Position numbers and translations under genes: made by a program. This document shows positions 1 to 63,967 of a stretch of DNA of 64,000 bases, piece after piece. Origin of the DNA: Petrosia ficiformis (lineage: Eukaryota; Porifera; Demospongiae; Haplosclerida; Petrosiidae); contig OX345636.1 in NCBI GenBank assembly GCA_947044365.1, positions 56,337,746 to 56,401,745 of the forward strand, read 5' to 3'. Below the pieces are notes generated by a model, which had not been told where the DNA came from, made no database searches, and saw only the letters and a list, made by a program, of their open reading frames with translations. Every line of letters starts with the position of its first letter. The first letter of the stretch is position 1.

Positions 1-1192
1 TAATAACATTTGTTATCAGGAAGAGCTATTATTAATCTTCTTAGATACTGAATTTCAGTACAAAATAGTGGACTTACGTATGAGCTATTAACATTAATTT
101 GATCAAAATTGTTTTACAGGAAAGTGTCCCTTACCAAAAATTAGGTCACATATTGCATGGTAGTTATATTTCATGTACATATATATACATGCTTTTTCTA
201 CATAAGCTATAACTATTCCTCTACATGTAATCACATATACACATAGTCACACACATGCTTTTATTGCTTTAACAATTCCTAAGAAATTTTGGATAATATT
301 TAGATATGGGTTCACTTACAATTACAATTTGTATTGATGCAATTGTTAATCATAAGGATTTTACTTTCATTCATTCATTCTATACCAAATTATTAAAATG
401 TAATGGTTATTATACATGTAGACACTTTCATTTTAGAATTTATGCTACCGGCTTAGAGGTATTGCTGTAATTATATTGTAATGGCATGCGACTGTACATG
501 TAATTGTAGTTGAATGTCACATAATTGTAGTTGTAATTAACCAGTGGTAGCTACACTGACAATAATTGAAGCTGTAATTGTAATTGGCCTTTTGTAATTG
601 AACCCAGACCTGGTACACATACATGTAGATGTACATAACCACTATTAATTAATTTATATTCAAATGTCACCTGAAATAATTGGAACAGAGTGTTTGTATA
701 AATGTAGCATTGTTAAGTAAATTCTTAGCTTGATACACCTACTATTATTACACTATATATAAGAGAACAACTACATTTTGTATTCAGTAATAACAACTAT
801 TGATCTTCCAGATAATAAATTCTATCATCTTTTATAATTAATAATGAATATTTTAATAATAATCATTTGTTTCATGTAGATATTCTCTTTTGTATACATT
901 ATACACATGTATCATGTACTTTTATATCTTCATTGTATCTAATTCAGATTATAAAGAGTATCACCATACCATTGTGTATACTTACATAATCTTGTTTGAA
1001 TTCTCATTAGTTTATATCTTATAATTCAGTTACATTCCTCCCTACTTAATCAACATGATGTTAAATGTAGTATCCTATCAAGACACTAAATTGTTTAATA
1101 TAATTATGATTAGTAATTGAGTCATGCATTTCTAATATGAATTGATTATACAAAATCTAAAGAATTACTTTTATTATTTCTTTTACATATAG

Positions 1193-1291
1193 GATGGATA
1201 TACGCCGCTTCATGACGCTGTTAGAGAGAATTCTAAAGATGTGGTAGATATACTATTGCGTCATGGAGCAAATGTGGATACACGGAATAAA
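1193..1291 (+). CDS. Ankyrin-repeat exon 1 (33 aa)
   Basis: This 99-nt exon lies between the acceptor TTTACATATAG and the donor GTTAGT, phase 0 at both ends. It encodes one complete ankyrin repeat beginning DGYTPLHDAV and ending RHGANVDTRNK, with the family hallmarks TPLH and LLxxGA. Symmetric phase means the exon can be duplicated or skipped without a frameshift. The flanking intron matches those around exons 10152 and 19846 almost exactly, yet the exon itself differs from them at roughly 13 and 38 of 99 bases. Confidence 0.85.
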
Positions 1292-4200
1292 GTTAGTTCT
1301 AATAACACACTATACTATAGTATTCATTATGTTATTGTACTAATTCCGGTGGTAATACATATTTTCATTAGTAATTGAATTTTGTGATTATAAAGAAGGG
1401 CTAATCTACTATACAGATCTGTGTTATAATATATAACTACCTTGTATGATATAACAGTTTCACAAGTATGATATTTACATGGAATATGATTTACATTAGT
1501 CTCCAGTAATGTAATGTAAATGAATTAATTGTAAGTACTCTCTGTCTTTTACCATTTTGATGACATAATGATTATAATTATTATCCTTTCCAAATACAAA
1601 ATGACTTTCTTCCTACAAACAGTTTCCATGCGTGACTGAAAACTTTTCACCACAATGTACATGTACATGTGTGTACATGTAGTATTACAATAATATTGTT
1701 TAATGTGGACATTTTTATATACACACAAAAACATGTTATAAATGTCTTGTTTTAGTATACATGTGGTTAATATGTATACAAAAATGTGTACACATGTGTC
1801 TAGTAATTAGTCTAGTGGCACTGCCCCTTCACTGGTAGGATCAAGGGTCTGGTACATATGTTACTAGATTGCTCCATCTCAAACCGCACTTTTATGAGCA
1901 CCACCTCAAAAGTAACAAATACAATCGTCAATGTATAATATGAATGTTATTTATTGTATTGTACATGTACAGCTGTATTTTGTAAAAAGGGACCTTGTTC
2001 AGCAATTAAACACTTACTTTTAATAACTCACTATTCAGCCATTTTGCACAGGAAGCCAATAAATAATAGTGTTTAATAGAAGTTTATATTTCATTCCACC
2101 ATATAAACTTTATGTGTAGGTAGTATTTTAATACAGACATGTTTATATACACATAAAAACCAGTTATAAATGTCTCGTTATGGTGTATATGTGGGTAACA
2201 TGTACAGTAGCCCTCAATAAAATGTTCACGTAGCATTGTTGTAGTACACAAGTAGTACTCTACACTCCATAAAACACTGAAAGAGCATATTATTATGCAT
2301 ACTACACTTAATAAAATAATGAACAGCAGTGACATTTGAGCTCCACCTTCTACTACTAACTAACTCTTTACCTCTACATATACATGTATAACTCTCCCAT
2401 TTTATATAACTAGAGTCTGTAACTTACATGTACTTTGGTGGAAAGAAGTGTTGTTAAGAAAGCTACACATGTATAGATGTTAAATGTACATGTATGATGC
2501 ACTATCAGCAGGAAGATAGCAAGGCTGGTGCTTAAAAGTTTAGTAGTCTAAAGGGCAACATCCACACCTTTGCTTATACCTGTGTAACTTCACATTTTAC
2601 ACAACACAGACTTCTAACTTCCTTAATTAGACAGGGGAGCTTCTAACAAAGTCGTAGATACCAAATACATGTATATGTACATGTATACATGCTTCGTTAG
2701 TCAGAGGAAAGCAACAAAGCGAGTGTTTGAAAGAGCAGTGGTCAGTGCCAATAGTCATGAGGCTAATGTGCTATGCGTTGTACATATATGTACATATTAT
2801 AATTAAAATGTTGCCGTAATTAATATGGTGGAACATACTTAGTGCATACGTACTACAATAACACTTTGTGAACTATTTATTGAGGGCTACTGTATACAAG
2901 AATGTGTACACATGTAGGCTAATGTGCTATGCGTTGTACATATATGTACATATTATAATTGTATAGCTCCAATAATTAATCGAGGGGAAAAAGTTTCGTG
3001 ATATATATTATATATTTTTAATTTCGTAAAACATTATTGGTTACAATTGTGGTTATACAAGCCACACCCACCTGATTTGAAAGTGTTATGATGGACAATG
3101 TTTCATTTGTATCTGGTTCTTATGTATGAGCTTATCCAAACACTGATGTTCAATATATTGTATTATCAGTACCTGACATTATTAAGTTCACATACTATCA
3201 CTGTACTTACAGTGTACTTTGTGAGTGAAGTACACTGTACTTCAAATGTACTACACCATATTTGACATACAAATGTAATGGGAATTAACACACAACTATG
3301 ATTACAGTACAAAGTACATGTAGTACAACTATATATTACAAGAATAATAAAAAACATTTTCAATAAAAATGAAAGAAGATGTAGGGATGTCAAAACCCAA
3401 AAAGCAAGCAAAGAAGGTTGGGAAGCTAACTTAGGACCCAAAATTAAACAAACCACTTCCATATAACCCTACATAAGTGCTTACACCTCTGTACAAAGAG
3501 CTGTAATTATGTAGGGTTATATGGAAGTGGTTTGTTTAATTTTGGGTCCTAAGTTAGCTTCCCAACCTTGTTTGCTTGCTTTTTGGGTTTTGACATCCCT
3601 ACATCTTCTTTCATTTTTATTGAAAATGTTTTTTTATTATTCTTGTTTTCATAGATTTTTTTCTAAACGATGTGAATGTTTTTTTTGTAGATTGCAGAAA
3701 TACTATATATCATTATGAAATCATGCAATCAAAAATGCATTAAAATGTGTTCATCAATGAAGGTCAGTCTTTTGTTTATGTATTGATTATCATTCTCTTT
3801 CACTTACAGATGATGTATATTCTCTATTCACTTACATCACTGTCTGCAGTCCTACAAGAAGTAGTGTCAGTCACTGTGTCAACCATTCAGTATTCCAATG
3901 CTTATCATAGTATACAATATTATTATACAATTGCTTTAATATTAATAATTATTATATTCATTATTAGTATTTGCTCACAAACTCACAAATGTTATTACAA
4001 TGCCAAACACTTCCACCTTTTCAGCTTCCATGTTAAGAGTATACAAATGCGCATGCGTAATTAAATTCCACTTAGGAAAATGGCGTCCAATTCCAGATCA
4101 AATCCTTGTAGTCGTTGAGACTGTCTTCTTTCATAGTATCTGAAGATATCATCTCGATACTTTACGACCAGAATTTTACTATAAATGCGACGGGAATGGT

Positions 4201-7200
4201 GCTAGAATCATCGTGATAGGTCAACAAACAAAAAAAATGATTTGTCTGGAAAATATTAATATGATGAAGATTTTGCCAGTTTTGCCACTCGCCGGTTCTC
4301 TACCTTAACAATAATCTTCGGCCATCTAGAAGGTATTGGTAGTCATAAAAACACTAGATATAAACAGGCATGTGTGTATAGAAACTTATGTGTATAAATT
4401 ACCAGAGATTTCAGCTCATCACTTGCAATTGAAATGCATGGGCGGCCATTTTTTTTCCGTGCCATCCCTACATAGAGAGTACTACCGTACTCTCTGATTA
4501 TACATGTACCACTTAGAAGTGCAGTTGACTATCACCTTATTAAAGTGTAGCTCCCATCATAGTATATAAAGTCAAGTACTATACATTTTGATAGTGTAAT
4601 ACTTGTAGTATACATGTATGTACATGTACATATAGATACAGTAATGTACATTGTACATGTACATGATGTCATTGGAGATGTAGAAAGAAAGAAAGAAAGA
4701 GATAAAGAAAGAAAGAAAGAAAGACACCTGAGGCAAATGGAAAAATGAACATGAGAGTTGCCACATGTACGTGTACATGTACATGTAGTATGTATAATAC
4801 TTGTACATGTACATAACAATAATGTTCATGTACATTGTACATGTACATGTAGGTTGCATGTACATGTATTATACATTTACATGTACAATTGTACATACAA
4901 GTACGTGTACTGTAATTAATACACATGTACATGTGTACATACTATTATGTGTATACTGTACATGTACTTCTTCACTATAATTATTACACCTACATACGTG
5001 TACAATAATACATGTTAAAACTATACATGTACGTCATCTTCATACTATAGTACATATTAGATGTACATGTATATATACTATGGTACTTCTACATGTATGC
5101 ATGTACATGTATGGTTGCTATATGGAAGTGGAATTTAATTTTGTTCCTAAAGCAAGGCACCATCCCAATCTTGTTCCTGTGCTTTTTTGGTTTATATATA
5201 ATTTTATTATTATATCAGTGTTTCTGAAAAGGCACCATTGACCCAAAGAGCTTCTTAATTATTTAGCACTGCACAGTTCTCTCTTTGAGCCACATGGTGC
5301 AGTTAATTATGATTACATTGTCACTAACAGCTTTGTTAACTGGCTCAAGATGTTTCCAATGGCATAACACTCTAACCATTGTTGAGCCAATTTGGCCCAA
5401 GCTTCAAACTTATCAAACCTCAGATTTAAAAAAATGTTTTTATTATATATATAATATAATCACAATATAATAATTATTATTGTCATGTATTGTCTACAAT
5501 TATTTTCTTATCAGTAATTATTGTTCTGCATGTGAGCGCATTCATTAAAATAATAAGACCCTTAATTAATCCTTAGACAACTGTTATGGAATATACAACA
5601 GTGTACATGTATGTGACATTTGGTACCATACTGCATTCATGATCATGATCATGATGTAGCATTCCAAGTGTCATGTTTGTCTTCAGTAGCAAATCCTTAT
5701 AAATTAAAGAAAGTCGTTACGATTATTTGAGCTGAAAATAGACTTAGACGGATTTTAATGGATATCCCCAATTGTTCAGCATTCATAAGGGAGCACCACA
5801 TTGATACTTGGGTTTTCATGCATTTGGGATATCTTCTTGAATGAACCATGTACATGTACACTCTGGATGTATATATATATATATATATGTACATGTAGAT
5901 GGTGTGAGACTGTCAGTACCATCACGATAGGAGACAAAATGACTGATGTAATACATTAATTATCCTCTATCCATTTTAGTATATTGTACATGTCACTACA
6001 ATGTCTCCATAAGTTACATGTACTGTACAACCTCTTAAAAGCAGATGCACATGGTAAATTTGATAATATTTTCAGTCACTATTGATTTCATAGACGTAGC
6101 CAGACCTTTAGGATTGGATGGGCCAGGTAAAGCATAGATCGGCGAGCGAAGCATACTGAAACAAGTTAGCGTTGATAAATTCATAATGTACATGGTCTAT
6201 CGTTCGTGGCCAGGCAGACGAGTTGAGTTGAAACTACTTCAACTTAGGGATGGGCGATTATGAAAATAATTATGAATCAATTATTATTATATGTGCAAGT
6301 ATCACGATTATTGCCATTATTGGTTACCTTACATACAATGTACATGTATGTATGTAGATTCCATTGAACAATCAAATTGATACCTTTTATTAGTTTAGTA
6401 AACAGTGTTGAAAAACTGATTTAGATGTGATAGTACTGAAAACCTGAAGTTATGGCACAATAATCATTATTTTTTGTGACCACGATATAGCCAATATGAT
6501 TATCACAGGAAATTTTCATCACGATTATCAAAATATTCCCCATCCCTACTTCAACTGCATGACCCTAGTTGAATCTGCTTGTTCCATCATCTGTAATACA
6601 CATCTTCATAACTATATCCTTGAGAGCATTCAAACTCTCTGATGTTCTCTAAGTGAAAAAACGATATTTATCACACAATAATTATAGTAGCAATGTACCT
6701 TACACCACACCTACTAATTACATGATATATATTGCCTGAGCCACAGCCCAGGCTGGCCCTGTGCTAGCTACACCTATCCTTGCAGTGACTAACTCTCTAA
6801 AATAAGGACACCTTGCTATTATGTAAAGCAGTCAGAAATATACATGCCACAAATATTTTTTCTTAATTTATTGAAGGACAAAAAAATTTAAACACAAAGC
6901 GAAAATCATCATCTGATCTTTCAATATGGTACCATTGGTGCCAGTCTATTGGAGAAAGAAGAGTAATCAAACATATACAGCAGTTTTCATCGCTGCCTTG
7001 CTAACGAAAAGAATTTACCTTTTAGTATATATACTGAAGGACCTCGAATTTACAAGTTCTAGAGAGAGTTTAAAAGCAGCACGAAAGATGCTGAAGAAAC
7101 AAGGCAAAGGAGATCGTCCCCAGGCAGTAATGTCTTTATCTAATGAGGATATTGTGGCAAACTGGTGCACGGGGCTGTTCGAATCCAGAACCTTTAATGC

Positions 7201-10200
7201 ATACTGTAAGGTTTCTGGTATATTACCGCATGGTATGCGAGGAAGGGATGAACCATAAAAATATTGTTTTGGAGACTTCACAATTCAGTCCACATCTGAT
7301 GGAAGGAAATACATAGAATACACCAGTGAACAAGACACAAAAACAAGATTTTGAGAGCATGAATATGATCATCACACTTTCAAGCCCAAAATGTGGGCTA
7401 CTCCTGAATGTCCCAAGAGGTGTCCTGTAATCATTTTTGAGCATTTTATCCAAGAACGACCAGAAAGTATGTGCAAACCAATGTCTCCATTTTACTTGGC
7501 CATCAACGGACTACTATTGGTTCCAAATGGTATACAGTGTAAGATAATGATTTTGGCCCTTTTTTGGTAAATGTATACAGACAAAATAATGGAAATGTTG
7601 AAAGGGTGTCCTCCTTCCTTTGGATGGTTTAATTGAAGGGGAAAGTATGTACTATTTTCAGACTTGCATGAGTTTTCTGGGATCCTGTAAACCCACACAT
7701 GTACATGTATTCAAGAGTGTATTTGAGAGAGTAGCTATAGTGTTTCTCTTCCTGAATGAATGTACATTCTGATAGTGACATTACCCTTATGATAAGACAC
7801 AAACAGACTGAATGTTATACATTAAACATCTTTCCTGATACAGTACATAGACTATTCATAAATAAATCAAGTCTACCATTCTATTGTAAGCATTACTAGT
7901 ATACAGTGTTCTGAACAGGATTTTACTATTTGTGGTACATGGATTAATTTATTAAAAGATTTAATAGGTGTGGCTAAGTTTCTTGAATCATGGCAAAAGT
8001 TAGTAGGAAAACGATGAGTAATAGTGATGTAGGCTTAATTCCAGAGCTGAAATGATGGACCAGGACCACCACTAAAAAGCCTAGTGAGAACATACCCATC
8101 TAGTATATTGTCTAATATACATGTATCTGTATGTTACAAGCGAGAACACGCAATTAAGGAGGACAATTTTCAGTCCCAATTGGCTTCTTGCCATCAGGAA
8201 AGTTTTGAAAGTGCTTATATGATGGTCCAGACAATTAGGTACCTTATAAGGGCATTATTAAGTGTAGCTGCTGATTTTATAATAGTGATGTGGTAGTTCA
8301 TTACATTTGTTTATCACATCAGTTCAGTTTGACTAACTCCGTCTGTATGTCTGGGACATACATGTACATGTACATTAGCTGAAACCTCCCAATAGCGGAC
8401 ACCTCTCTAAGACGGACACTTTCTTGCAATCCCAAACACACTTCCATAGATGCCCATAGATTGGAACCCTCTGAAATACGGACACCTCGCTATTTCGTAT
8501 ACCGGACACATATCACGCCCCCATTGATATTATAAGATACGAAAACCACTCTATATTGCCATTTAATTTCCTTAATAAGCATGAGCAAAATGCAACAGTT
8601 CATGCAGGGGTGTGGAAATAGTGAGCCAATTGCCGAACATTCTGGCTTGTTTTCACTACTTTTGTCCTGCTCCCCATGTACTTTGTATACAGTTCAGTTT
8701 TAATTTACCGGACATTCACTAGATTTATCGGACAATGTCCTGCATGACTGGGTGTTTCCACACCCCTGAGTTCATGAGTTGGTTTTGGTTTTAGAGCAAC
8801 AGAAACTCACAAAACTAGTACAACTAGTACAACTAGTACAACTATACTCCAAAAATACTTTAGATGAAACACTTCCTTCAATTGCTCATTTAATAACATT
8901 TGGTATCAGGAAGAGCTATTATTAATCTTCTTAGATACTGAATTTCAGTACAAAATAGTGGACTTACGTATGAGCTATTAATATTAATTTGATCAAAATT
9001 GTTTTACAGGAAAGTGTCCCTTACCAAAAATTAGGTCACATATTGCATGGTAGTTATATTTCATGTACATATATATACATGCTTTTTCTACATAAGCTAT
9101 AACTATTCCTCTACATGTAATCACATATACACATAGTCACACACATGCTTTTATTGCTTTAACAATTCCTAAGACATTTTGGGATAATAATCAAATATGG
9201 GTTCACTTACAATTACAATTGTAATTGAGGTCAATTACAATTACACAATTACAATTATGTAGTTGTAATTATACTGTAATTGAAACATTTGTATTGATGC
9301 TATTTTTAATCATAAGGATTTTACTTTCATTCGGCATTCTATACCAAATTATTAAAATGTAATGGTTATTATACATGTAGACACTTTCATTTTAGAATTT
9401 ATGCTACCGGCTTAGAGGTATTGCTGTAATTATATTGTAATTGCATGCGACTGTACATGTAATTGTAGTTGAATGTCACATAATTGTAATTTTAATTAAC
9501 CAGTGGTAGCTACACTGACAATAATTGAAGCTGTAATTGTAATTGGCCTTTTGTAATTGAACCCAGACCTGGTACACATACATGTAGATGTACATAACCA
9601 CTATTAATTAATTTATATTCAAATGTCACCTGAAATAATTGGAACAGAGTGTTTGTATAAATGTAGCATTGTTAAGTAAATTCTTAGCTTGATACACCTA
9701 CTATTATTACACTATATATAAGAGAACAACTACATTTTGTATTCAGTAATAACAACTATTGATCTTCCAGATAATAAATTCTATCATCTTTTATAATTAA
9801 TAATGAACATTTTAATAATAATCATTTGTTTTATGTAGATATTCTCTTTTGTATACATTATACACATGTATCATGTACTTTTATATCTTCATTGTATCTA
9901 ATTCAGATTATAAAGAGTATCACCATACCATTGTGTATACTTACATAATCTTGTTTGAATTCTCATTAGTTTATATCTTATAATTCAGTTGCATTCTTCC
10001 CTACTTAATCAACATGATGTTAAATGTAGTATCCTATCAAGACACTAAATTGTTTAATATAATTATGATTAGTAATTGAGTCATGCATTTCTAATATGAA
10101 TTGATTATACAAAATCTAAAGAATTACTTTTATTATTTGTTTTACATATAGTATGGAGATACGCCGCTTCATTACGCTGCTGAAGAGAATCGTCAAGATA

Positions 10201-13200
10201 TGGTAGATATACTATTGCGTCACGGATCAAATCTGGATACACGGAATAAAGTTAGTTCTAATAACACACTATACTACATTATGTTATTGTACAAATTCCG
10301 GTAGTAATACATATTTTCATTAGTAATTGAATTTTGTGATTATAAAGAAGGGCTAATCTACTATACAGATCTGTGTTATAATATATAACTAGCTTGTATG
10401 ATATAACAGTGTCACAAGTATGATATTTACATAGAATATGATTTACATTAGTCTCCAGTAATATAATGTAAATGAATTAATTGTAAGTACTCTCTGTCTT
10501 TTACCATTTTGATGACATGATTATTATTATCCTTTCCACATAATTATATTGGATAAACACATCATGAGATTCATGAATATATACACATAAAAACCAGTTA
10601 TAAATGTCTTGTTTTGGTGTATATGTGGGTAACATGTACAGTAGCCCTCAATAAGAACTTCACGTACGATTTGTTGTAGTACACAAGTAGTACTCTACAC
10701 TCCATAAAACACTGAAAGAGCATATTATTATGCATACTACACTTAATAAAATAATAAACAGCAGTGACATTTGAGCTCTACCTTCTACTACTAACTAACT
10801 ATCCTTTCTTTACCTCTACATATATAACTCTCCCATTTTATATAACTAGAGTTTCTAACTTACATGTACTTTGCTGGAAAGAAGAGTTGTTAAGAAAGCT
10901 ATAGATGTTAAATATGTGATTCACTATCAGCAAGAAGATAGCAAGGCGAATGCTTACAAGTTTAGTATACCAAAGGGCAACACCCACTCCTTACCTGTAT
11001 AACTTACTCATTTTACAGTTTATATAGACTACTAACTTACTTACAGGGGAGCTTCTAACAAAGTTGTAGATACCAAATACATGCTTCATTAGTCAGAGGA
11101 AAGCAGCAAAGGGAGTGTTTGAAAGTGCAGTGGTCAGTGCCAACAGCCACGAGGCTAAAATAGTGCACTATGCGTTGTACATGTACGTATGTACAGTGTA
11201 CATATTAAAATTAAAATGTTACCATAGTTAGTAGTTAACATGGTGCAACATACATGTACTTAGTACATACATGTACATGTACGTACTACAATAACACTGT
11301 GTGAACTTTTTATTGAGGGCTACCGTATACAAGAATGTGTACACATGTATGTGTCTAGTAATTACATGTAGTCTGATGGCATTGCCTCTTCACTGGTAGG
11401 AGGAAGGGTCTGGGACATAAATGTACATGTACATGTATATTACCAGATACTCAACCTCAAACCACACTCTTATAAGCTCCACCTCACATGTAACAAATAC
11501 AATGTTCAATGTACTGTAAATTGGGAGGGTATAAACCCGGAATAGAATGAAACTGAATGTGGAATGGAACGGAACAGAACCGAACTGGAAGTTGATAACT
11601 ATTATTATATGTTTGGTAATGGAATTTAATATGTAATTTTAATATTATATCGTGCGCAATCGTACGTGTGTACATGTATACTGTACATAACTGCATGTAT
11701 AATAATTGTTACATGTACATACATGTACATGTACAATAATACATGTTCATACTATACGTCATCTTCATACTATAGTACATAGTAGATGTACATGTATATA
11801 CTGTGGTACTTCTACATGTACATGTACATGTACAACTACAGTATATAATCTGTACTTAAAATTAAAAATTTGTGATATTTGATTTAAACATTGGCCACAC
11901 CCACCATTAATTAATTAAACGAATGCAAAATCTGCAGACTCAGAGAAGCCTAAAACTTTCTTGAAACATTTGTAAGATGTTCATGCATGTACTATTAATT
12001 GACTGTCTATTACTATCCCATGTCTGAGTTCACCTACATGTAACTACATGTTACATGCCTTGCTTTGGCAACAAAATTAAATACCACTTACTCATAACAA
12101 CCATACATAAGTAATAGATAGAGTAAAGGCAAAACACAAAGAAGTGATACTTACATGTACGTATGTATGTATGGTTGTTATATGGAAGTGGAATTTAATA
12201 TTGTTGCCAAAACAAGGTACCATCCCCATCTTGTTCCTGTGCTTTTTCGGTTTTGATATATATCAGTGTTTATGAAAAGCTCATATGGCGCACCATTGAC
12301 CCAAAGAGCTTGTTAATTATTTAGCACTGTACAGTTCTCTCTTTGAGCCACATGGTGCAATTAATTATGATTACATTGTCACTAACAGCTATGTTAACTG
12401 GCTCAAGATGTTTCCAATGGCATAACACTCTAACCATTGTTGAGCCAATTTGGCACAAGCTTCAAACTTATCAAACCTCAGATTTAAAAAAAAAAATTTA
12501 TTATATATATAATATAATCACAATATAATAATTTTATTATTATCATGTATTGTCTACAATTATTTTCTTATCAGTAATTATTGTTCTGCACTGTGAGTGC
12601 ATTCATTAAAATAGTAAGGCCCTTACTTAATCCTTAGACAACTGTTATGGAATATACAACAGTGTACATGTATGTGACATTTGGTACCATACTGCATTCA
12701 TGATCATGATGTAGCATTCCAAGTGTCATGTTTGTCTTCAGCAGCAAATCCTTATAAATTAAAGAAAGTCATGACGATTATTTGAGCTGAAAATAGACTT
12801 AGACGGATTTTAATGGATATCCCCATTTGTTCAGCATTCATAAGAGCAGCACCACATTGATACTTGGGTTTTCATGCATTTGGGATATCTTCTTGAATGA
12901 ACCATGTACATGTACACTCTGGATGTATATATATATGTACATGTAGATGGTGTGAGACTATCAGTACCATCATGATAGGAGACAAAATGACTGATGTAAT
13001 GCATTAATTATCCTCTATCCATTTTAGTATATTGTACATGTCACTACAATGTTTCCATAAGTTACATGTACTGTACAACCTCTTAAAAGCAGATGCACAT
13101 GGTAAATTTAAAAATATTTTCAGTCACTATTGATTTCATAGACATAGCCAGACCTTTAAGATTGGATGGGCCAGGCAAAACATACATGTACATGTACATG

Positions 13201-16200
13201 TAGATCGGCGTGCAAAGCATGCCGAAACAGTTTAGTGCTAATAAATTTTTGATGGGCATGGTCTACCGTTCGTGGCCAGGCAGACGACTTCAGTTGAAAC
13301 TACTTCAACTTAGGGATGGGCGATTATGAAAATATGAATCAATTATTATTATATGTGCAAGTATCACGATTATTGCCATTATTGGTTACCTTACATACAA
13401 TGTACATGTATGTATGTAGATTCCATTGAACAATCAAATTGATACCTTTTATTAGTTTAGTAAACAGTGTTGAAAAACTGATTTAGATGTGATAGTACTG
13501 AAAACCTGAAGTTATGGCACAATAATCATTATTTTTTGTGACCACGATATGGCCAATATGATTATCACAGGAAATTTTCATCACGATTATCAAAATATTC
13601 CCCATCCCTACTTCAACTGCATGACCCTAGTTGAATCTGCTGGTTCCATCATCTTTAATACACATCTTCATAACTATATCCTTGAGAGTATTCAAACTCT
13701 CTGATGTTCTCTAAGTGAAAAAACGATATTTATCACACAATAATTATAGTACAATGTACCTTACACTACACCTCCTAATTATGTGAATAATATTGCCTGA
13801 GCCACAGCCCAGGCTGGCCCTGTGCTAGCTACACCTATCCTTGCAGTGACTAACTCTCTAAAATAAGGACACCTTGCTATTATGTAAAGCAGTCAGAAAT
13901 ATACATGCCACAAATATTTTTTCTTAATTTATTGAAGGACAAAAAAATTTAAACACAAAGCGAAAAACATCATCTGATCTTTCAATATGGTACCATTGGT
14001 GCCAGTCTATTGGAGAAAGAAGAGTAATCAAACATATACAGCAGTTTTCATCGCTGCCTTGCTAACGAAAAGAATTTACCTTTTAGTATATATACTCAAG
14101 GACCTCGATTTTACAAGTTCTAGAGAGAGTTTAAAAGCATCACGAAAGATGCTGAAGAAACAAGGCAAAGGAGATCGTCCCCAGGCAGTAATGTCTTTAT
14201 CTAATGAGGATATTGTAGCAAACTGGTGCACGGGGCTGTTCGAATCCAGCACCTTTAATGCATACTGTATGGTTTCGGGTATATTACCACATTGGTATCC
14301 GAGGAAGGGATGAACCAAAAAAATATTGTTTTGGAGACTTCACACTTTAGTCCACATCTGATGGAAGGAAATACATAGAATACACCAGTGAACAAGACAC
14401 AAAAACAAGATCTTGAGAGCATGAATATGATCATCGCACTTTCAAGCCCAAAATGTGGGCTACTCCTGAATGTCCCAAGAGGTGTCCTCTAATCATTTTT
14501 GAGCATTTTATCCAAGAACGATCAGAAAGTATGTGCAAACCAATGTCTCCGTTTTACTTAGCCATGAACTGGAATAATTGGACTACTATTGGTTCCAAAT
14601 GGTATAAGATAATGATTTTGCCCCTTTTTTGGGTAAATGTATATATTATAGACAAAATAATGGGAATGTTGAAAGGGTGTCCTCCTTCCTTTGGATGGTT
14701 TAATTGAAGGGGAAAGTATGTACTATTTTCAGACTTGCATGAGTCTTCTGGGATCCAGTAAACCCACACTTGTACATGTATTCAAGAGGTTATTTGAGAG
14801 GGTAGCTATAGTGTTTCTCTTCCTGAATGAATGTACATTCTGATAGTGACATTACCCTCATGATAAGACACAAACAGACTGAATGTTGTACATTAAACAT
14901 CTCTCCTGATACAGTACATAGACTATTCATAAATAAATCAAGTCTACCATTCTATTGTAAGCATTACTAGTATACAGTGTTCTGAACATGATTTTACTAT
15001 TTGTGGTACATGGATTAATTTATTAATAGGTGTTGCTAAGTTTCTTGAATCATGGCAAAAGTTAGTAGAAAACGATGAGGGATAGCGAGGTAGGCTTAAT
15101 TCCAGAGCTGAAATGATGGACCAGCACCACCACCAAAAAGCCTAGTGAGAACATACCCTGGTAGTATATTGTCTAATATACATGTATCTGTACGTTATAA
15201 GCGAGAACACACGATTAAGGAGAACAATTTTCAGTCCCAAGTGGCTTCTTGCCAATCTTTGTAGTTCATTCATTTTGTATAAATTATAGGTACTGTGTAC
15301 CTTACTGAACTGTCCATTCAGCAATGAACTGTTAACACTACAATTTAATGGGTTCTTTCTTTCTTCATGTAACCATTGTGTGATTATGTCATCATTATAA
15401 TTATCATAACATTATTCTATACAGTATCATTGTTAGTATTGGGTGTGGTTTTATATTTTATATAATCAAATGTGTTTCTATTTATAGTAGTGAATGGTTA
15501 CATGAACAAACTGTCAGTTAATATCTCATTTGTAATTTATAATGTATGGATTGCCATCTTTTCTAATCATCCTCTAAATTAAGGACATCTTCTATAATTA
15601 GAACACATTCACTAGTCCTAATGGTGTCTTCAATATGAAAGTTCCATGTATATTGTGTTATATTTGCTGTTTATTAATTACATCAAATAGTTAATAATTA
15701 TGTTAGTTGAATTAGGAACCAGTGAGCACATTCAAACTCCTTTTACAATCTTTGTTAGTCAAAATGTTCTTAGTGCCTCAAGTAATATACACAATGTATT
15801 GTCACTATGATGATATCAGGCATCATCACCATGCAAATTCCATGTGTACACAAGGAGGTACAGTACATGTTGTGTGTAGTATTTCTACCTATGGATTTGC
15901 TCCTTGTCTTGGAAAGGCAATCGAGTGTTTAAACTGTTAATTGTAGAACTCCATCTTGATGTGGTCATTTCTCATAATGGCACTGTGGTCAGTGTTAATA
16001 TCGTAGATGCATAGCTGTGGTTAAACCACATGCTGTATGTAAACTACACTTGACAGGTGTGGTATAACTAGTAGTTGTGTGAAGACAAGCTAACTAATGT
16101 TGGGTTGTTGCAAAGTAAAAAGTGGTTATTTGGACAAGTGGACAAGTGTTAATTTCTAGTCCTAAGTGAAATATCAATTTAGATACAATTGTTTCTAAAT

Positions 16201-19200
16201 TAATATAATTACTACATGTCATGTGATATTGTAATTTGAAAACAATGGGATCAAAATGTACCTTGAAATGTCACGTGGAAATCACATACATGTAATAGTA
16301 TTACATAAGGAATCACCCAATCCACAACCCACTTAGTTTATCTTAAACTACATGTACGTATTATATAATTTATAGTGAGTGTACTGTATACTGTAGCTGT
16401 TTTTATTCATGCTAAGAGAAAAACTGTTCCATTACCGACGTACATGTATTTAACACACGCGATTGTGGTCAATTGAAGAACACGTAAATACATTTCCGCG
16501 AAATGTTACTGCGAAATTAAGTGAAAATTAACTCCCCTGGAAAAACACCCACTATATGGTACAATTTTTCATGTTAATACTATAGATCATTTTCTTACTA
16601 TACTACATATTACATGTACATAGGATAGTACATGTACATGCATATACATTTACACAATATAGTTATGAGATATTATGCGAGCATAAACAATACTATAGCC
16701 ACCAAACTACATGTACATGTTATTTTAGGTATCAGCTGTGTTTGTATGTACATGTTTGTATGTATTAATTCAGCTATGATAATTTATGAATTATCATTCA
16801 AGCCTTTCAAATGTTGATTACTAACACCTCGAGGATTCTGTGATATCATGATTGTTTTATAGTGACAATATTATATACTCACCTATACAGATTCATTATT
16901 GGTTTCATTTGATAGTATAGGTCACATGTGAAAGTATAATTTCACTCCATTATTTTATTCATATACATATTCATATGCATGTACATGTACATAGTGGAAT
17001 AAAAACAAGAAAATGAATTTTTAGTAATAGTTGGAACTATACAATATTCAAAATTAAATGAATCTGTATAAATACTAATACATGTAATTCTCCCCCTTTT
17101 ATACAAGTCATATTCCCACCTGATTATCTAATGATCCAGGTAACATGTTCACTTTAAGTTGGTACATAGTCTGGTAATTATAGTGTATTTATTAACTGAC
17201 ATACAGTATAATTATATCAATAAAAAGTCACCATACAGTGCAGTAATTACTCAGTTTCTACAGTACATTAAAAGTGGTTTGACAGTAATTGGTGTACTTA
17301 TGAATTACTGTAATTACTGTACTATACTGACAGTAGAAATAAGGTAATTATTGTTACTGTATGATGACTTTTTATTGACATGTATGGTACGTTTATCATT
17401 ACTGTAAAAGTCATTTTTAAAACTAATTTTTAAATAAAACCTGTTCTTGTTATGCAAGCTATGAAAATACATGAAGTTTGATTAGTGTAGTTGTGAGAGA
17501 CATCAAGCTGATAATTATATACCAATGCTAATTAATTAATTAATTAACCATTATATAGATGACATCAAATACACGTATATGTAATTATTACACTTACAGT
17601 CACTATCCTAGCATAATGTTTGTGTTCAGTTGCAAGCTCTTAAAAGTCAAATACATGTGAATAATTTTGCCCCATTTTTGGCTAAATGTTATAGACATGT
17701 ACATTCTGTATTTATTATAATTATGGATAGTGACATTACCCTCATGATAAGACACAAACTGACTGAATGTTATACGTACATTAAACATCTCTCCTGATAC
17801 AATACATTGGCTATTCATAAATAAATCAAGTCTACCATTCTATTGTAAGCATTACTAGTATACAGTGTTCTCAACAGGATTTTAGCACTTGGTAGTGCCT
17901 GTAAAACTAAGATTTATTAGGTGTGACTAAGTTTCTTGAATCGGGCCACAAGTTAGTAGGAAAATAATGAGTGATAGTAGTGTAGGCTTAATCCCAGAGC
18001 TGAAATGATGGACCAGCACCACCACTAAAAAGCCTAGTGAGAACATACCCTGCTAGTATATTGTCTAATATATCCATAAATTAGACATGCTATGAGACCT
18101 TTTAAAGTGGACAATTTTCAGTCTCAATTGACCTCTTGCTAATCGTTTTAGTTAAACACCCTTTATAATATAAGAACAGCTTGCTATTCTGTAAAGTAGC
18201 CACTAAATGTCCCAAATAATATCTTTACTAGAGAATGCTTGCATGCATGCAGTCATTGTGGGGCAAGCCTGAGAAGGAATAACCAAATGAGCAAAAGCAA
18301 GCAGAAGGGAAGAAGAGCAAAATGCAACAGTTCATGAGTTGGTTTTGGTTTTAGAGCAACAGGAACTCACAAAACATGTAGATCAGTTTATCAGTACTAT
18401 CAATCCAATCTCTCCTCTTTAGTCTATGCAGTTTGTCTAGATCTGTCCCTCTCTCTTCTTTTCATCGATCTCTTTTCATCCATAGCTATCACACAATGAC
18501 ACACATGTAGCTTTGTTAATTAATTAATAAAACGTTTTAGTATTTCAACAATAAGATATTTGCGAAATACATACGTACATGTATTAAAAATTTATTGAAA
18601 AGTCAACACGGTTTAATAGAACATACGGAATCATGTATAATACATACACATGTACATACATGTACATACATATATACGTAAAGAAAATTCTCAACCAACT
18701 CCCTAGTGTAGGGCTCTCTCAGGCTCGTCTCAATTCAAACAACAATACATAAATAATATTACATGTATATATTATGGGCAATAGATTGATACTAATATAA
18801 TATAATTGATATAATACTTGAACATTCTCTACATTAATGATGTCTGTTAGCCATCTTGAAGATCTTGTTAATTGTATAGACACTTGATAACAAATGATAT
18901 GCGGTTATGAAGACATGTATGTCTATTAGCAGTAGTGTTGTATTATTATGACAATGATGAGCACTATTAGTTATAGTATGACTAGTTTATCACTAGTTAT
19001 GATTTAATTATCTATAATAATATAGGCTTACTAAAAGGGTTTTAATTTTAGATAACTAACTAAAATTCCCAATTATTGGTGAATTTAGATTTTAGTTAAT
19101 TATAGTTATTTCATCAGACCTGTAATTTACGTAGTTATAGTTTAGCTAAAAGTCATAATGTCTTTAATGGAAGGGGTTTTAGTTATAATTATGTTTAATT

Positions 19201-22200
19201 AAAAACCCTACTCTAATTGTAATTGTAATTGGCCATTTGTAATTGAACCCAGACCTGGTACACATACATGTAGATGTAGATGTACATAACCACTATTAAT
19301 TAATTTATATTCAAATGTCACCTGAAATAATTGGAACAGAGTGTTTGTATGAATGTAGCATTGTTAAGTAAATTCTTAGCTTGATACACCTACTATTATT
19401 ACACTATATATAAGAGAACAACTACATTTTGTATTTAGTAATAACAACTATTGATCTTCCAGATAATAAATTCTATATATCATCTTTTATAATTAATAAT
19501 GAACATTTTAATAATAATCATTTGTTTTATGTAGATATTCTCTTTTGTATACATTATACACATGTATCATGTACTTTTATATCTTCATTGTATCTAATTC
19601 AGATTATAAAGAGTATCACCATACCATTGTGTATACTTACATGATCTTGTTTGAATTCTCATTAGTTTATATCTTATAATTCAGTTACATTCCTCCCTAC
19701 TTAATCAACATGATGTTAAATGTAGTATCCTATCAAGACACTAAATTGTTTAATATAATTATGATTAGTAAATGAGTCATGCATTTATAATATGAATTGA
19801 TTTGACAAAATCTAAAGAATTACTTTTATTATTTCTTTTACATAGTTAGGACAGACACCTACTCATCTGGCTGCTTTTAACAACAGTGTAGATGCACTAT
19901 CTGCACTAATACGTCATGGATCAAAATTGGATACACAGGATAATGTTAGTTCTAATAACACACTATACTATAGTATTCATTATGTTATTGTACAAATTCC
20001 GGTGGTAATACATATTTTCATTAGTAATTGAATTTTGTGATTATAAAGAAGGGCTAATCTACTATACAGATCTGTGTTATAATATATAACTACCTTGTAT
20101 GATATAACAGTGTCACAAGTATGATATTTACATAGAATATGATTTACATTAGTCTCCAGTAATATAATGTAAATGAATTAATTGTAAGTACTCTCTGTCT
20201 TTTACCATTTTGATGACATAATGATTATAATTATTATCCTTTCCAAATACAAAATGACTTTCTTCCTACAAACAGTTTCCATGCGTGACTGAAAACTTTT
20301 CAGCACAATGTACATGTGTGTACATGTAGTATTACAATAATACTGTTTAATGTGGACATTTTTATATACACACAAAAACATGTTATAAATGTCTTGTTTT
20401 GGTATACATGTGGTTAATATGTATACAAGAATGTGTACACATGTGTCTAGTAATTAGTCTAGTGGCACTGCCCCTTCACTGGTAGGATGAAGGGTCTGGT
20501 ACATATGTTACTAGATTGCTCCATCTCAAACCGCACTTTTACGAGCACCACCTCAAAAGTAACAAATACAATCGTCAATGTATAATATGAATGTTATTTA
20601 TTGTATTATACATGTACAGCTGTATTTTGTAAAAAGGGACCTTGTTCAGCAATTAAACAATTACTTTTAATAACTCACTATTCAGCCATTTTGCACAGGA
20701 AGCCAATAAATAATAGTGGCATTATAGATAATAGTGGTATTATAGGTAATAGTGGTAATGCTAGAGAAATGAGTAAATTTACACAATTTATTAATGATTT
20801 CAGTTGTCCATTCATTGTTTACATTATGGATTAAGTTTATTATTCTATAGGTTTTGCTAGAGTTTACGATGATTCTAAAATGTGATAGAATTACAGATAT
20901 TGTTGTACACAAGTTGGGATAAATATTATTCCATTATTCTGGACTGTTACCAGTATTACCTATAATACCACTATTATTTATTATAAGATCTTTATGAATT
21001 AGTATCCTCTCTAGACACACTACAGTAATTAAGGTAGTACCATCTACATGTACATGTAGTAGATGTTCATTTGTACATGTACATGTAGATGGTACTTCCA
21101 TCATTACTGTAGTGTGTACATGTACAAATGAACATCTACTACATGTACATGTAGATGATACTACCATCATTACTGTAGTGTGTACATGTACAAATGAACA
21201 TCTACTACAAGTTTTATAATAACAAGTATAAGTACTAGTATATATGTATACAGTGTATACATATATATTATACATACAGTATGAACATGTAGTCATGCAC
21301 TTAGTCTCATGTGGCTGACATGCAATGTATCATAAAATGAGGCAATGTCGGGGAAATTGTAACATTTCTGCTGGAAGATTTGTCACAGAGCCAATCAAAT
21401 TCGTTTGGTCATATGACTTTCACCAAAAGAAAATGTATTATAGTGTAACTGGAGACTATACAGAACATTCAGACACTTGCCTTGCTGTATTGCAATAACA
21501 AACAACCATTCTGGTTTCTGTGGCTTTATTAGATGATCTTCTATCCAACAAAGTAAGTTAGAATTCTGAATGTGTTCAAATTTTAAAGATATAATAAACC
21601 TATAAAATTTTGTCAAAATCTCACTCATGTAGTGTCATGGGAATTCATCAGTTAATTGACATTATTCTGGACTATTACATTCTTGTTTGAAACAAATTGT
21701 ATCACAGTTTCCCCAGATGCTTCCTCATTTTATCAATATAATTATCAGCCATACAAGACTATTATATACTATATACATTTAGTATGTATAAAAGTACATC
21801 AGTATTTTTGATAAGCTTATATGGCGCACCATTGGCCCAAAGAGCTTCTTATTTGGCGCTGCACAGTTCTCTATTTGGGCCAGTGGTGCAGTTAATTATG
21901 ATTATATTGTCAGTAACAGCATTAACTCTTTGTTACTCGGCTCAAGATGTATTCTCAATGGCACACACACTAACCATTGTTGAGCCAATTTGGCCCACGC
22001 TTCAAAACTTATCAAAAACTCTGAAGTACATGTGTATGTATTAATTTACAGCCTATAAAGGAATTAGTCTCAATGTAAGTACTCTCTGTCTTTTACCATT
22101 TTGGTGACATAATCCTTTCCAAATGTATTGGATAAACACATCATGACATTCATGAAGAAAAATGACCTTCTTAGTTTCCATGCATGACTTAAAACTTTTA

Positions 22201-29600: not shown

Positions 29601-32600
29601 TGTGCTTATACTTGTACTTGTGCTTGTATTTGTGCTTGTGCTTGTGCTTGTGCTTGTACTTATACTTGTATTTGTGCTTGTGCTTATACTTGTACTTGTG
29701 CTTATACTTGTGCTTGTGCTTGTACTTATACTTCTACTACTTGTGCTTGTGCTTATACTTGTACTTGTGCTTATACTTGTGCTTGTGCTTGTACTTATAC
29801 TTCTACTACTTGTGCTTGTACTTATACTTGTACTTGTGCTTGTATTTGTACTTGTGCTTGTATTTGTGCTTATACTTGTACTTGTGCTTGTATTTGTGCT
29901 TGTGCTTTTGTGCTTGTACTTATACTTGTACTTGTGCTTGTATTTGTGCTTGTACTTGTACTTGTACTTGTGCTTGTATTTGTGCTTGTGCTTGTGCTTG
30001 TATTTGTGCTTGTGCTTGTACTTATACTTCTACTACTTGTGCTTGTGCTTATACTTGTACTTGTACTTGTGCTTGTACTTGTGCTTATACTTTACTAACT
30101 AACCTTGGACATCTTCGAGGTGTTGTTGCCATATTTAACAAAGGCATGGATATATGAGTGTTTTAAAAATAGTAACAGATGGTCAAACAGATACATGTAG
30201 TTTCACCAGTTTAATGAAATGCGTGGTCGACTGTCGCTCAGGACTACTCTTTCGCTTTCTTGTCAACTCTGGGCTCCTCTTTGTATTAGTTGTATTACTT
30301 GTATTACAAGTGCTTTGACCAAATGTTGCTTAACGTCATTAACAAGGAAGTTAGACTAGCACAGGTTGCTAATATTAACCAGCTCCCTGGGACCGACGGC
30401 AGAGGGGATGTTGAACACCTAATTTTCTGAGGGTACAACTGAGTACACTCATAGGCAAAAAAAGGCTAACCCTAGTGGGGCTTGAACCTGCAACTTTTCA
30501 TAATTCACTTTAACCAGCGAGACCACTAGTACCGTCCTATTAGTTGTATTACTTGTATTACTTGTATTACTTGTATTACTTGTATTAGTTGTGTTGATAT
30601 GAGGGTTGTATTATAATGCACATTTCAAAGAACGCTATTTTTTCCATTGCAGATGATATCAAAAGTGATATTTCCAAGCAAGATGAACCAAATGTGAAGA
30701 AGCCAGATGAAACAATACCAGGTACTAAATGTAGTGTCTTTATAAAACAAATAGTACAGTATGACTGAGTAGCATCACGAGTACATGTATCTCTTTCTGT
30801 ATTTTAACTTAATATGATGTGTTATAAACTCTACTATTAAATTCACTATTAGTAGAATGCTGTATTTGTAATTAAGATATAAATAGTTACCACTCTTCTT
30901 AATAGTTCCTATACATAGAACTATTGTATTACATGTATTATTATCAATACATGTATTGAGAATGTCTATAGATGCATTGAAATTTCAAACTTACTCTAGT
31001 GTGACTTGGCCATGGAAAGTAGAGTATAATGAATATCTGTTATTAGTTTCAATTATCATAGGTTATTGGTAGAAGAATACATTTTGTAATAAGTAGATGA
31101 TGTCAACTTTCATACCTTAAGTCTGCTTTTAATTGCATGTACTAATTTTAGCAAATTTAGCAACTAAAATTATTATGTGCTAATAATATATTTAGTGATT
31201 AGGCAAATTAGGTGTGGCTCAGAAATTCACTAAAATTATACAATGCCATGATAAACACGAGCATTTAAAAATCACTGAGTTTAGTGGATGCAGTAGGCTT
31301 TGGTATTTAGCACATCACAATAGTTATGTAAACAATGTGAGTACTACAACAACAATAAATCCACTTGTATCATCAGCATTGAATGTATCAACAGCCACTC
31401 GTGTCAATAGCCACTTGTATCAACAGCATTGCTATGTCTTTTTTTCTTACTCCCTCCACTATAACATCATGTAGTGCTACAGTTCATCTAATGATATTCA
31501 TAAACATGATCTTCCACTACTATGTCCTGATTCATTTCAGTATACCAAACACAGTGTTTTAATAGTGTGTATAGTAGTAGAATGTAGTAGTGGTTGATAT
31601 ACATGTAGTAGGTGTGCTTATTTTAATATTCAAATTACTAAACAATCATGTTTATATTACTATTAATTTTGTAATTGCTGCCAATATCTGATTCATTGAT
31701 ATCTCATGTTTTCAGTTGGAATTCAATAATGAAACATTCTTCTCTCTCAATCCCTAGATACCCCATTTTCTCCAGAAATTCAGGCTTCTCTGATCAGCGC
31801 TCTAAAAGAGGGATCTGGTGATGCTAATGTGTGTCTTTTACTAATGCATGGGGCACCAGCGGTAGGTAAATCTAGCGTTTGTCGTGTACTACAAGGACTT
31901 CCGCCTTTACCAAAACCCCAGCAGCATAGCACAGACGTTTTCGAGAATCCAGTTCGATTAATCAAAACGGGTCGCTTTTCTCTAACATCTGAAGCAGTAC
32001 TAGAACATGTTGACGAGACGAAATTAATGGGAATGATTGCTTCCCATATTGTGGAAAAGGAAGAGGAGGAAAAACACAAATCAACAGCACCATCTCAGCC
32101 ATCCACTAAAAGTGAAAATCGAGACAAACATGCAGAAACACAAACTCCGACTGGTATTGTGCAACATGTTCCAAGTGGAACCTCCCCAGCAAAGAAACAT
32201 CCAACCTCACAGCCAATGTCAGATGTTCTTAGAGGTATTGCCAAGCTGAAGAGAAAAGGGAAATCCTCCTCTGATCTTTTCAAAATTGCCTGGTTTCTCA
32301 TAATGGATTCTGGTGGTCAGCCTCAGTTCACTGATGTACTTCCTCTTATGTTCCCAAAAGTGTCGCTTCATCTTGTAGTGATTCGTTTAGATGAGACGTT
32401 AGATGATAAGCCATTGGTTCGTTACCTCGTTGCTGGTGAAAACAAATATAAGCTCCCAGAAAATCTTGCACTGTCTAATCTACAAATGATACAGAGGACA
32501 TGTGAACTAGCTGAGGCCGCTAGAATCTCTAGTCAGAAGAAAGGTCATCCATGGGTAATGGTCATCGCAACACACTTAGATTGCGACTGTTCTAAAGAAT

Positions 32601-49304: not shown

Positions 49305-49599
49305 ATGATGTAACTTCCTTAACTACGTATACAACGCATACTCGCGTAAGTGGACACAAGAAAAAAAAAATAAACATACATCGAACCCGTGGGAAAGCAA
49401 TCATAGAGATGGCCCTGCGGGCCATAAAAAGTAATTATTATTATGGCCCGTAGGGCAGTTGCTTTCCACGGGGTTTAATGTATATATATTATTTATCAAA
49501 CAATGTTTACCATAGAAACAACGAATCCATACATTTTCAATTAGACATTCAAATCACGCACTACGACAATATTTTCCAGTATTTTTATAGAGTCATATG

Positions 49600-57683: not shown

Positions 57684-57966
57684 TGTTAGGACTTAACTCA
57701 GATTTACCAAAATAGATCATCAAAAGAATAACAACCAAGTTGATATTAATATACACACAGACACACTGAAAAAAAACTAAATTGTACAAAGTATTTATAG
57801 AAAACTAATGTCTAGAATGTTCTAGAACATAACATGTGGTCCTACATGTGCTAAGGAATGATCCAGAAAAATAATTATAGAAGTGTTAAATGAAACATGT
57901 GACATTACAGTACAAGAGTACATAAATTAATGAAATAAGTACAAAACACTCACTTAACACCAAACA
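57684..57966 (-). repeat. 3' LTR of the BEL/Pao element
   Basis: On the element's strand it starts TGTTTGGTG and ends CCTAACA. Matches 63685-63967 base for base by eye. It contains no obvious gene. Confidence 0.92.
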
Positions 57967-58023
57967 TACCGCCGGTCATGACCGGAGGTCATAGAGTAAA
58001 GGATGGTACAAATACCATAATGT

Positions 58024-63549: not shown

Positions 63550-63662
63550 GTCAGCAAAGTTCAAGTGGAAGCAGGCAAAATAGAGGGCTGTAACAGTGAG
63601 TAAAACCAAATGCGAGAGACTATCTGAGAACAAGCCAATGAGAGTGCGAATGATCTTGTTAT

Positions 63663-63680
63663 ATCCGGTTCGGCGGACCA
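63663..63680 (-). promoter_or_regulatory. Primer-binding site of the BEL/Pao element
   Basis: Four bases after the 5' LTR the element reads TGGTCCGCCGAACCGGAT, complementary to a tRNA 3' end finishing in GGACCA. The C1:G72 pair implied by that end suggests tRNA-Tyr, but this needs comparison with the genome's tRNAs. Confidence 0.75.
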
Positions 63681-63684
63681 AAAA

Positions 63685-63967
63685 TGTTAGGACTTAACTC
63701 AGATTTACCAAAATAGATCATCAAAAGAATAACAACCAAGTTGATATTAATATACACACAGACACACTGAAAAAAAACTAAATTGTACAAAGTATTTATA
63801 GAAAACTAATGTCTAGAATGTTCTAGAACATAACATGTGGTCCTACATGTGCTAAGGAATGATCCAGAAAAATAATTATAGAAGTGTTAAATGAAACATG
63901 TGACATTACAGTACAAGAGTACATAAATTAATGAAATAAGTACAAAACACTCACTTAACACCAAACA
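63685..63967 (-). repeat. 5' LTR of the BEL/Pao element
   Basis: Carries the element's promoter; 283 bp, same sequence as 57684-57966. Followed on the plus strand by the target duplication GGCGT (63968-63972) and then unique sequence to the window end. Confidence 0.92.

Follow-up and report, generated by a model that had tools for sequence, protein, structure and literature searches.

Divergent single-repeat ankyrin exons between closely similar introns in a putative ANK-ROCO-Death gene family of the sponge Petrosia ficiformis

We analysed a stretch of 64,000 nucleotides, called the window below, from the sponge Petrosia ficiformis (contig OX345636.1, here C1; C1:56337746-56401745). C1 has 63,279,122 bases, and the searched genome comprises 191,215,263 bases in 29 contigs; all results come from the sequence of this one genome assembly. 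The window carries three exons that each encode a single ankyrin (ANK) repeat, and a Roc-COR-like exon and a Death-domain exon follow them on the same strand. The ANK exons are much more diverged than the introns around them, and this exon-intron contrast repeats in dozens of units across about 10 Mb.

Ankyrin exons of the window and their introns

ANK exon 1 (1193..1291, DGYTPLHDAVRENSKDVVDILLRHGANVDTRNK), ANK exon 2 (10152..10250, YGDTPLHYAAEENRQDMVDILLRHGSNLDTRNK), and ANK exon 3 (19846..19944, LGQTPTHLAAFNNSVDALSALIRHGSKLDTQDN) are all on the + strand, 99 nt (33 codons) long, and in phase 0. Each of them is bounded by AG and GTTAGT and matched Pfam Ank, and the three exons joined gave a Pfam Ank match of 5.9e-29. 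Exons 1 and 2 belong to class A and exon 3 to class B of the exon classes described below. The exons are spaced 9-10 kb apart. In addition, a profile of them found no further ANK exon in the whole window, the sole extra match being at chance level (E 2.7).

Each exon lies between putatively homogenised intron blocks on the + strand. For exons 1, 2, and 3, respectively, the upstream blocks are at 573..1192, 9532..10151, and 19218..19845, and the downstream blocks at 1292..2071, 10251..10542, and 19945..20718. The upstream introns differ at 5/610 positions between units 1 and 2, 10/608 between units 1 and 3, and 11/608 between units 2 and 3. These differences (0.8-1.8%) are smaller than the value of up to about 5% given in the initial annotation, which had been estimated by eye. 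Downstream, units 1 and 3 differ at 4/330 positions over the first 330 bp. Units 1 and 2 differ there at 8/287, and they can be compared only to about 280 bp past the exon, where unit 2 leaves the common block.

The exons differ at 13/99 (exons 1 and 2), 38/99 (1 and 3), and 36/99 positions (2 and 3), and the first two values agree with those of the initial annotation (about 13 and about 38). Between exons 1 and 2, 11 codons are changed and 10 of them alter the amino acid, at exactly the positions that had been named (1, 3, 8, 10, 11, 14, 15, 17, 26, and 28). Between exons 1 and 3, 23 codons are changed (4 silent). Furthermore, the divergence had been placed to start and stop near the splice sites. 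In 20-bp steps, the step at the splice donor is indeed abrupt in the window units, and no window pair has a base difference in the 40 bp directly 3′ of the exon, where unit 2 has a 7-base gap.

Because the contrast recurs in dozens of units over about 10 Mb, it is neither chance nor a local assembly fault. Mis-joining of haplotypes in the assembly is unlikely, as such an error would hardly repeat the same pattern at dozens of loci.

Meanwhile, a frame of 111-113 aa is duplicated within the 9-kb units (window 6917-7258 and 13978-14313), and its first copy had no Pfam match.

Exon classes and intron histories across the family

The units were found by a 24-base intron motif at the donor side of the exon. 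This motif occurs at 113 places genome-wide (89 + 24, with ≤3 mismatches), and its reversed control at 0; among 100 motif places listed, 92 are in C1:50.9-62 Mb. We read 80 of the 113 units, of which 79 are distinct, and an open 33-codon frame ends at the motif in 78 of the 79. The classes were assigned by exon motif, namely PLHxAA...DILLRHG and close forms for class A and PTHxAA...ALSALIRHG and close forms for class B, and by these rules the 78 units include 29 of class A, 36 of class B, and 13 others. One unit (L073) is class A by rule, yet it is unlike the other A units and is outside the main set of 50 units used below. Beyond 52 Mb on C1, the ANK exons of the + strand form 37 groups of one to five, a break being set at >60 kb. 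We met no account of this gene family among the titles and abstract openings listed in literature searches, which is weak evidence.

A third exon class (EEVLHTLITYGS or close) was observed in units L011-L015 and L075 at C1:50.9-51.9 Mb. Its introns are related to the common ones and more diverged.

The main comparison set includes the 50 of 78 units whose flanks are of the common type on either side (23 of class A, 26 of class B, and 1 other; filter of 93% identity), and the divergence tables rest on its 49 A and B units. The nucleotide diversity (pi) of the upstream intron is 0.019 in class A and 0.013 in class B, and the divergence between the classes (dxy) is 0.019; the corresponding values are 0.032, 0.030, and 0.033 for the downstream intron, and 0.158, 0.075, and 0.358 for the exon. 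At four-fold sites, differences amount to 328/2837 (0.116) among A exons, 54/5285 (0.010) among B exons, and 1170/5425 (0.216) between A and B. For A versus B, the divergence of silent sites is thus 6-11 times that of the introns, and it is raised among A exons too, whereas the four-fold sites of class B are no more diverged than the introns (pi 0.013-0.030). Intron divergence is not similar to the silent divergence between the exon classes.

In addition, pN and pS (replacement and silent differences per site) were obtained by a counting method on a looser set of 26 A and 27 B units. The pooled pN/pS was 1.20 (A-A), 2.07 (B-B), and 1.34 (A-B), in no case below 1. The pS values were 0.133, 0.047, and 0.282, against 0.0245, 0.0185, and 0.0247 in the introns. 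By this method the B-B pS exceeds the introns 2.5-fold, and 0.52 of the 1.15 silent changes per pair are in codon 28. Over bases 67-77, a part of the last third of the exon, the two classes are nearly alike (dxy 0.059).

The separate histories of introns and exons were examined in 749 intron columns, which exclude the last 20 bp upstream and of which 66 are polymorphic beyond singletons. Fixed differences between A and B were found in 0/749 intron columns versus 10/99 exon bases, and 49 of the 66 intron polymorphisms are common to both classes. Fst between the classes is 0.67 in the exon, 0.14 in the upstream intron, and 0.06 in the downstream intron. Furthermore, the class label changes only once on the exon tree (support 100), compared with 11 label changes on the tree of the upstream intron and 9 on that of the downstream intron, and class A as one clade is rejected by both introns in the approximately unbiased test (p-AU 0.036 upstream and 5e-8 downstream). 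There is no significant correlation between upstream and downstream intron distances (0.15, p = 0.10). These results show largely different histories of intron and exon.

Linkage in the introns decays fast: r2 is 0.36 within 100 bp and 0.02-0.06 in larger bins, also across the exon, with one bin at 0.11 (7 pairs). All four gametes are present in 55 of 137 close intron site pairs. The decay of linkage together with the four gametes indicates exchange in short tracts, and we read it as the movement of pieces of about 100 bp between units.

The initial annotation held that selection alone on a recent duplication suits the first pair of exons better than the third exon, and this division is broadly right. 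Positive selection alone on young duplicates, with no exchange, does nearly explain class B, where four-fold divergence (0.010) is at or below that of the introns and the replacements are in five codons, although even there pS (0.047) is above the introns (0.0185) by counting. It fails between A and B and also among A exons. Pure selection on young copies is rejected for A versus B by four-fold divergence (0.216, and 0.116 within A, versus 0.019-0.033 in the introns) and by the absence of any fixed intron difference, and the intron trees do not accept class A as a clade. As an explanation of the whole family it is very improbable. Since selection alone fails, the introns have been exchanged or the exons swapped. 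The initial annotation had offered this same pair, namely intron homogenisation with protected exons, or exon replacement; the data support the two as a pair and do not separate them.

We consider it probable that recombination homogenises the introns, while diversifying selection preserves the exons, in a sponge ANK-ROCO-Death family. The single-repeat ANK exons would belong to a large family of ANK-ROCO (Roc-COR)-Death genes that lie in clusters and whose copies exchange DNA in short tracts by ectopic recombination and, presumably, gene conversion. Exchange in the introns would be neutral and would hold the copies about 1-3% apart, whichever exon they carry. Exchange in the exons would be resisted, because diversifying selection would keep the binding surfaces distinct, and the exon mismatch (up to 38% in the window) probably halts heteroduplexes at the exon edges. 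Within an exon class, replacement changes gather at a few surface codons, and the rest of the class B scaffold is nearly frozen. The intron polymorphism shared by the classes favours such homogenisation in place.

However, several points weigh against this explanation. First, the unlinking of intron and exon is incomplete. Without the last 20 bp, the intron Fst is 0.071, which is above shuffled labels (permutation p = 0.002), and the last 20 bp upstream reach an Fst of 0.55. A weak correlation with exon distance also persists for both introns (0.34, p = 0.003 for the upstream one; 0.14, p = 0.013 for the downstream one), a further point against full unlinking. Second, part of the intron similarity comes from the procedure. 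Across units, the 40 bp past the donor hardly vary, and their first 24 are the motif used for finding units, so the near-invariance of those bases is partly built in. The 93% filter lowers intron divergence. Of the 65 units in class A or B, 16 do not pass the flank tests on at least one side. The pN/pS values come from counting, and recombination disturbs such tests. Third, intron distance is flat with position (0.021 for pairs <20 kb apart and 0.022 for pairs >3 Mb apart; Spearman -0.17), which means that exchange acts over megabases or that dispersal was recent. Ordinary conversion favours neighbours, and thus the flat distance favours an exon swap into a young dispersed frame. Finally, 18 of the 37 ANK groups have no Roc-COR or Death exon among the matches listed, from which diverged copies escape.

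The effect of the motif search and of the filter is answered only in part by a search that started from the exons. A 42-base B core and a 39-base A core were compared with the 99 donor-side and 82 upstream motif places listed on C1. For the B core there are 51 occurrences, 38 of which are letter-perfect, and for the A core 24. The donor-side motif is at the exact offset in at least 45 of the 51 B cores and in 24/24 A cores, and the upstream motif is beside at least 40 of the 51 B cores and 24/24 A cores. In the reverse direction, the upstream motif was counted at 83 places, 82 on C1 and one on C18, and the ANK donor motif follows at 185-210 bp in 75 of the 82. Among the other seven, three are beside a B core, in two the donor motif comes at 213 bp, one is an A unit (L080), and one is left. 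With all but one place explained, the intron block is hardly ever without an ANK exon. About 80 bp from the exon, the upstream flank becomes foreign in five units of class B.

A mobile element that amplifies the intron with a captured exon was also considered, and it was rejected on the ground that the intron block is nearly always accompanied by an ANK exon.

The flat intron distance, together with the abrupt exon step at the donor, would suit a course of events in which one unit recently spread over the end of the chromosome and its exons were then replaced; the introns would be young, and the exons would come from an older, diverse ANK pool. Possible donors exist as ANK exons in other intron contexts (among L069-L076). 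In addition, two units 3.9 Mb apart, L023 (C1:56465538) and L060 (60375357), are identical over 1301 bp. The window's Roc-COR exon is matched at 91% and 98% by those downstream of the two units; thus, ANK unit and downstream exon do not have one shared history. However, the 49/66 shared intron polymorphisms and the linkage decay within 100 bp need intron exchange as well. We regard this course of events as unlikely, though it deserves serious attention.

Two further explanations were considered. If functional constraint for splicing or regulation held the introns, while the exons drifted and were selected, the almost invariant 40 bp past the donor would be expected, although the first 24 of these bases are the search motif. 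However, constraint by itself would give no mixing of intron variants across the exon classes, and units L069-L071 have almost none of the common introns and still encode an ANK repeat. We give this little credence. The sharp step at the donor could likewise arise if exons were overwritten from spliced RNA, by cDNA-templated conversion ending exactly at the splice sites. Against this, class-linked variants continue beyond the exon in the upstream intron, where Fst is 0.55 at -20 to -1 and 0.20-0.22 at -80 to -41, and bases 67-77 of the exon are nearly common to both classes, which makes such overwriting hardly credible.

Replacement changes at a few codons of the repeat

Codons 1, 3, 8, 11, and 12 of the ANK exons were picked after the data had been seen. 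At these codons, class B has 19 replacement variants versus 1 silent variant, and class A has 23 versus 0. In class B, 12 of their 15 bases segregate, versus 77/732 in the introns (p = 1.4e-9); in class A, 13 of 15 segregate, versus 94/731 (p = 4.6e-10). The remaining 28 codons do not differ significantly from the introns in class B (14/84, p = 0.10), and they do in class A (33/84, p = 1.7e-8). Codons 1, 3, 11, and 12, a set taken from the practice with designed ankyrin repeat proteins (DARPins) and likewise post hoc, show segregation at 10 of 12 bases in each class (p = 1.6e-8 and 1e-7).

The 36 B exons show 30 combinations at the five codons, and the protein of codons 13-26 is common to 29 of them. 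All four combinations of two states are present in 9/10 codon pairs in class B and 10/10 in class A, so these codons reassort or mutate repeatedly. Codons 1 and 3 flank a conserved Gly, and codons 11 and 12 are the two residues after Ala-Ala. There is an excess of replacement changes at these few codons, which appear to be surface positions of the repeat. The third exon class likewise varies at codons 1, 3, 8, and 11-13.

In an earlier class split, codon 3 of class B was CGG, CAG, or TGG in 30/31 units, and CAG and TGG are what CpG decay makes from CGG; methylated CpG, through its decay, may contribute to the variation at this codon. This observation, and the confinement of change to few codons, could be explained by a targeted mutator acting on chosen codons. 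However, codons 1, 8, and 11 show changes other than CpG transitions, and the replacement excess of 19:1 and 23:0 is predicted by selection, not by a blind mutator. A mutator of this kind is most improbable.

Like the sponge exons, DARPins carry variable residues on a fixed ANK scaffold, and alignments showed that codons 1, 3, 11, and 12 correspond to residues that differ between the repeats of DARPin D12. Unlike DARPins, the sponge exons are natural and germline-encoded, and codon 8, which is a framework position in DARPins, varies too. In excerpts of a study on ANK complexes (PMC8229355), the beta-loop fingers contact the targets and the inner helices can add contacts. Codon position, together with the architecture described below, suggests that the ANK exons form a recognition array; the proteins may bind ligands and play a role in recognising microbes or non-self.

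Roc-COR and Death exons, gene model, and comparisons

A long open exon of Roc-COR, ROCO-like type is at 31733..33746 (+). Position 31733 directly follows the last stop and is no mapped splice site, and 33746 precedes a possible donor, GTAAAT at 33747, read by eye. A P-loop motif (GAPAVGKSS) and DSGGQ were recognised by eye, and there is a COR-A-like part; Pfam Roc matched only at E 0.17, in a relative (P0033). The 735-aa window frame alone had no match in PDB or Pfam. It has at least 33 relatives, proteins without names, and a profile of the frame with 33 relatives gave 12 PDB matches (best 7.4e-8), 11 of them named LRRK1 or LRRK2 and one a non-specific serine/threonine kinase. These matches cover positions 337-520 of the profile, a part in which relatives are matched by COR-A as well. 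COR-A was found at E ≤ 0.01 in 11 of 34 members, below the Pfam cut-off in the five shown, and it was not found with the window frame alone. By the family profile only, a COR domain appears to be present. In three copies of this exon (window, L081, and L082; 656 codons), pS is 0.046-0.083 and pN/pS is 0.35, 0.35, and 0.50; the Roc-COR exon is under purifying selection.

The Death-domain exon is at 41661..42023 (+), an open frame with unmapped splice sites that matched Pfam Death at 3.2e-7 (30.8 bits versus a cut-off of 22.6). The exon and its flanks are 99-100% identical at no fewer than four places on the chromosome, the window included. From the low pN/pS of Roc-COR and the near-identical Death copies, the signalling end looks conserved while the ANK exons diversify.

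At least 19 of the 37 + strand ANK groups have a Roc-COR match (at least 12), a Death match (at least 10), or both. Their order, strand, and repetition suggest that ANK, Roc-COR, and Death exons are joined in one transcript. No kinase was found among the window frames scanned with Pfam, and the window does not reach the 5′ end of the gene. Similarly, no NACHT or NB-ARC was found among seven Pfam-scanned sequences, which were six window frames and the joined ANK exons rather than the whole window. Between the ANK exons and the Roc-COR exon, a 6/12-bp tandem repeat (GCTTGT/GCTTGTACTTGT) was observed at window 29406-30092.

DAPK1 combines ANK, Roc-COR, and Death. The putative sponge genes resemble DAPK- and LRRK-type ROCO proteins in having these three together, LRRK1/2 being matched by profile. 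Unlike in DAPK, there is no kinase in the scanned window frames, and the sponge family is expanded with hypervariable ANK exons; membership in the DAPK family is not claimed.

The exon-intron contrast itself has precedents. In human red/green opsin genes, a divergence peak at exon 5 stands within introns homogenised by conversion (excerpts of PMC3924837). As in those excerpts, neutral introns here are alike, probably by conversion, exon differences appear to be kept by selection, and the peak at the exon is abrupt. Neutral flanks much less diverged than exon silent sites (0.216 versus 0.019 and 0.033) and introns exchanged irrespective of exon type were both found here, the latter with a weak residual class linkage (Fst 0.071). 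The opsin case of the excerpts concerns two genes and two key residues, compared with about 100 exons in 37 one-strand groups here, and what varies here is probably a binding surface rather than a pigment. In fungal NLRs, for example those of Podospora, the ANK, WD, and TPR repeats are highly conserved, concerted evolution has been suggested, and the few positively selected sites are mostly on the concave surface (excerpts of PMC4986451). The sponge family is like these, as far as the excerpts go, in its ANK repeats, selection at few surface sites, and receptor-like architecture. It differs from them in that the fungal genes have NACHT or NB-ARC, while a ROCO-like, switch-like domain is present here; moreover, each repeat here has its own exon and the introns carry the homogenisation signal. 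In snake three-finger toxin genes, accelerated segment switch in exons to alter targeting (ASSET) left introns highly alike, exon segments different, and the molecular surface altered (excerpts of PMC2474615). Segments inside exons switch in that description, whereas whole exon classes differ here, and single codons within classes.

The principle is thus already known, and the scale and the protein are new. This is a large natural case of how exons are kept apart in DNA that is becoming alike, and one genome gives enough copies for the study of tract length, edge sharpness, and selection per codon. We tentatively suggest, as a possibility somewhat short of even, a germline counterpart of a DARPin library, in which dozens of ANK-ROCO-Death receptors would use single-repeat exons as cassettes, with paratope positions varied by selection and reassorted between genes via the homogenised intron frame. 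If so, the sponge would have a repertoire against microbes, symbionts, or non-self without immunoglobulin domains, leucine-rich repeats, or NACHT. Should the ANK arrays bind ligands of microbes or of self, they would add a further scaffold to the few animal gene families built for diversity, and this in a symbiont-rich animal lineage that branched off early. DARPins are the nearest engineered parallel, which makes binding directly testable.

Other features were observed in the window. A 283-bp direct repeat with 100% identity (57684-57966 and 63685-63967) flanks long - strand frames at 58024-62802 and 62803-63693, and the region 57684-63967 looks like a very young long terminal repeat (LTR) retrotransposon. 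A 1068-aa frame at 46116-49322 (-) had a sub-threshold reverse transcriptase match (PF00078, 9.9e-5), and a frame at 38755-39135 (-) matched a QRICH1 domain (1.3e-14). In addition, a 48-bp tandem repeat of 5.8 copies is at window 44240-44517.

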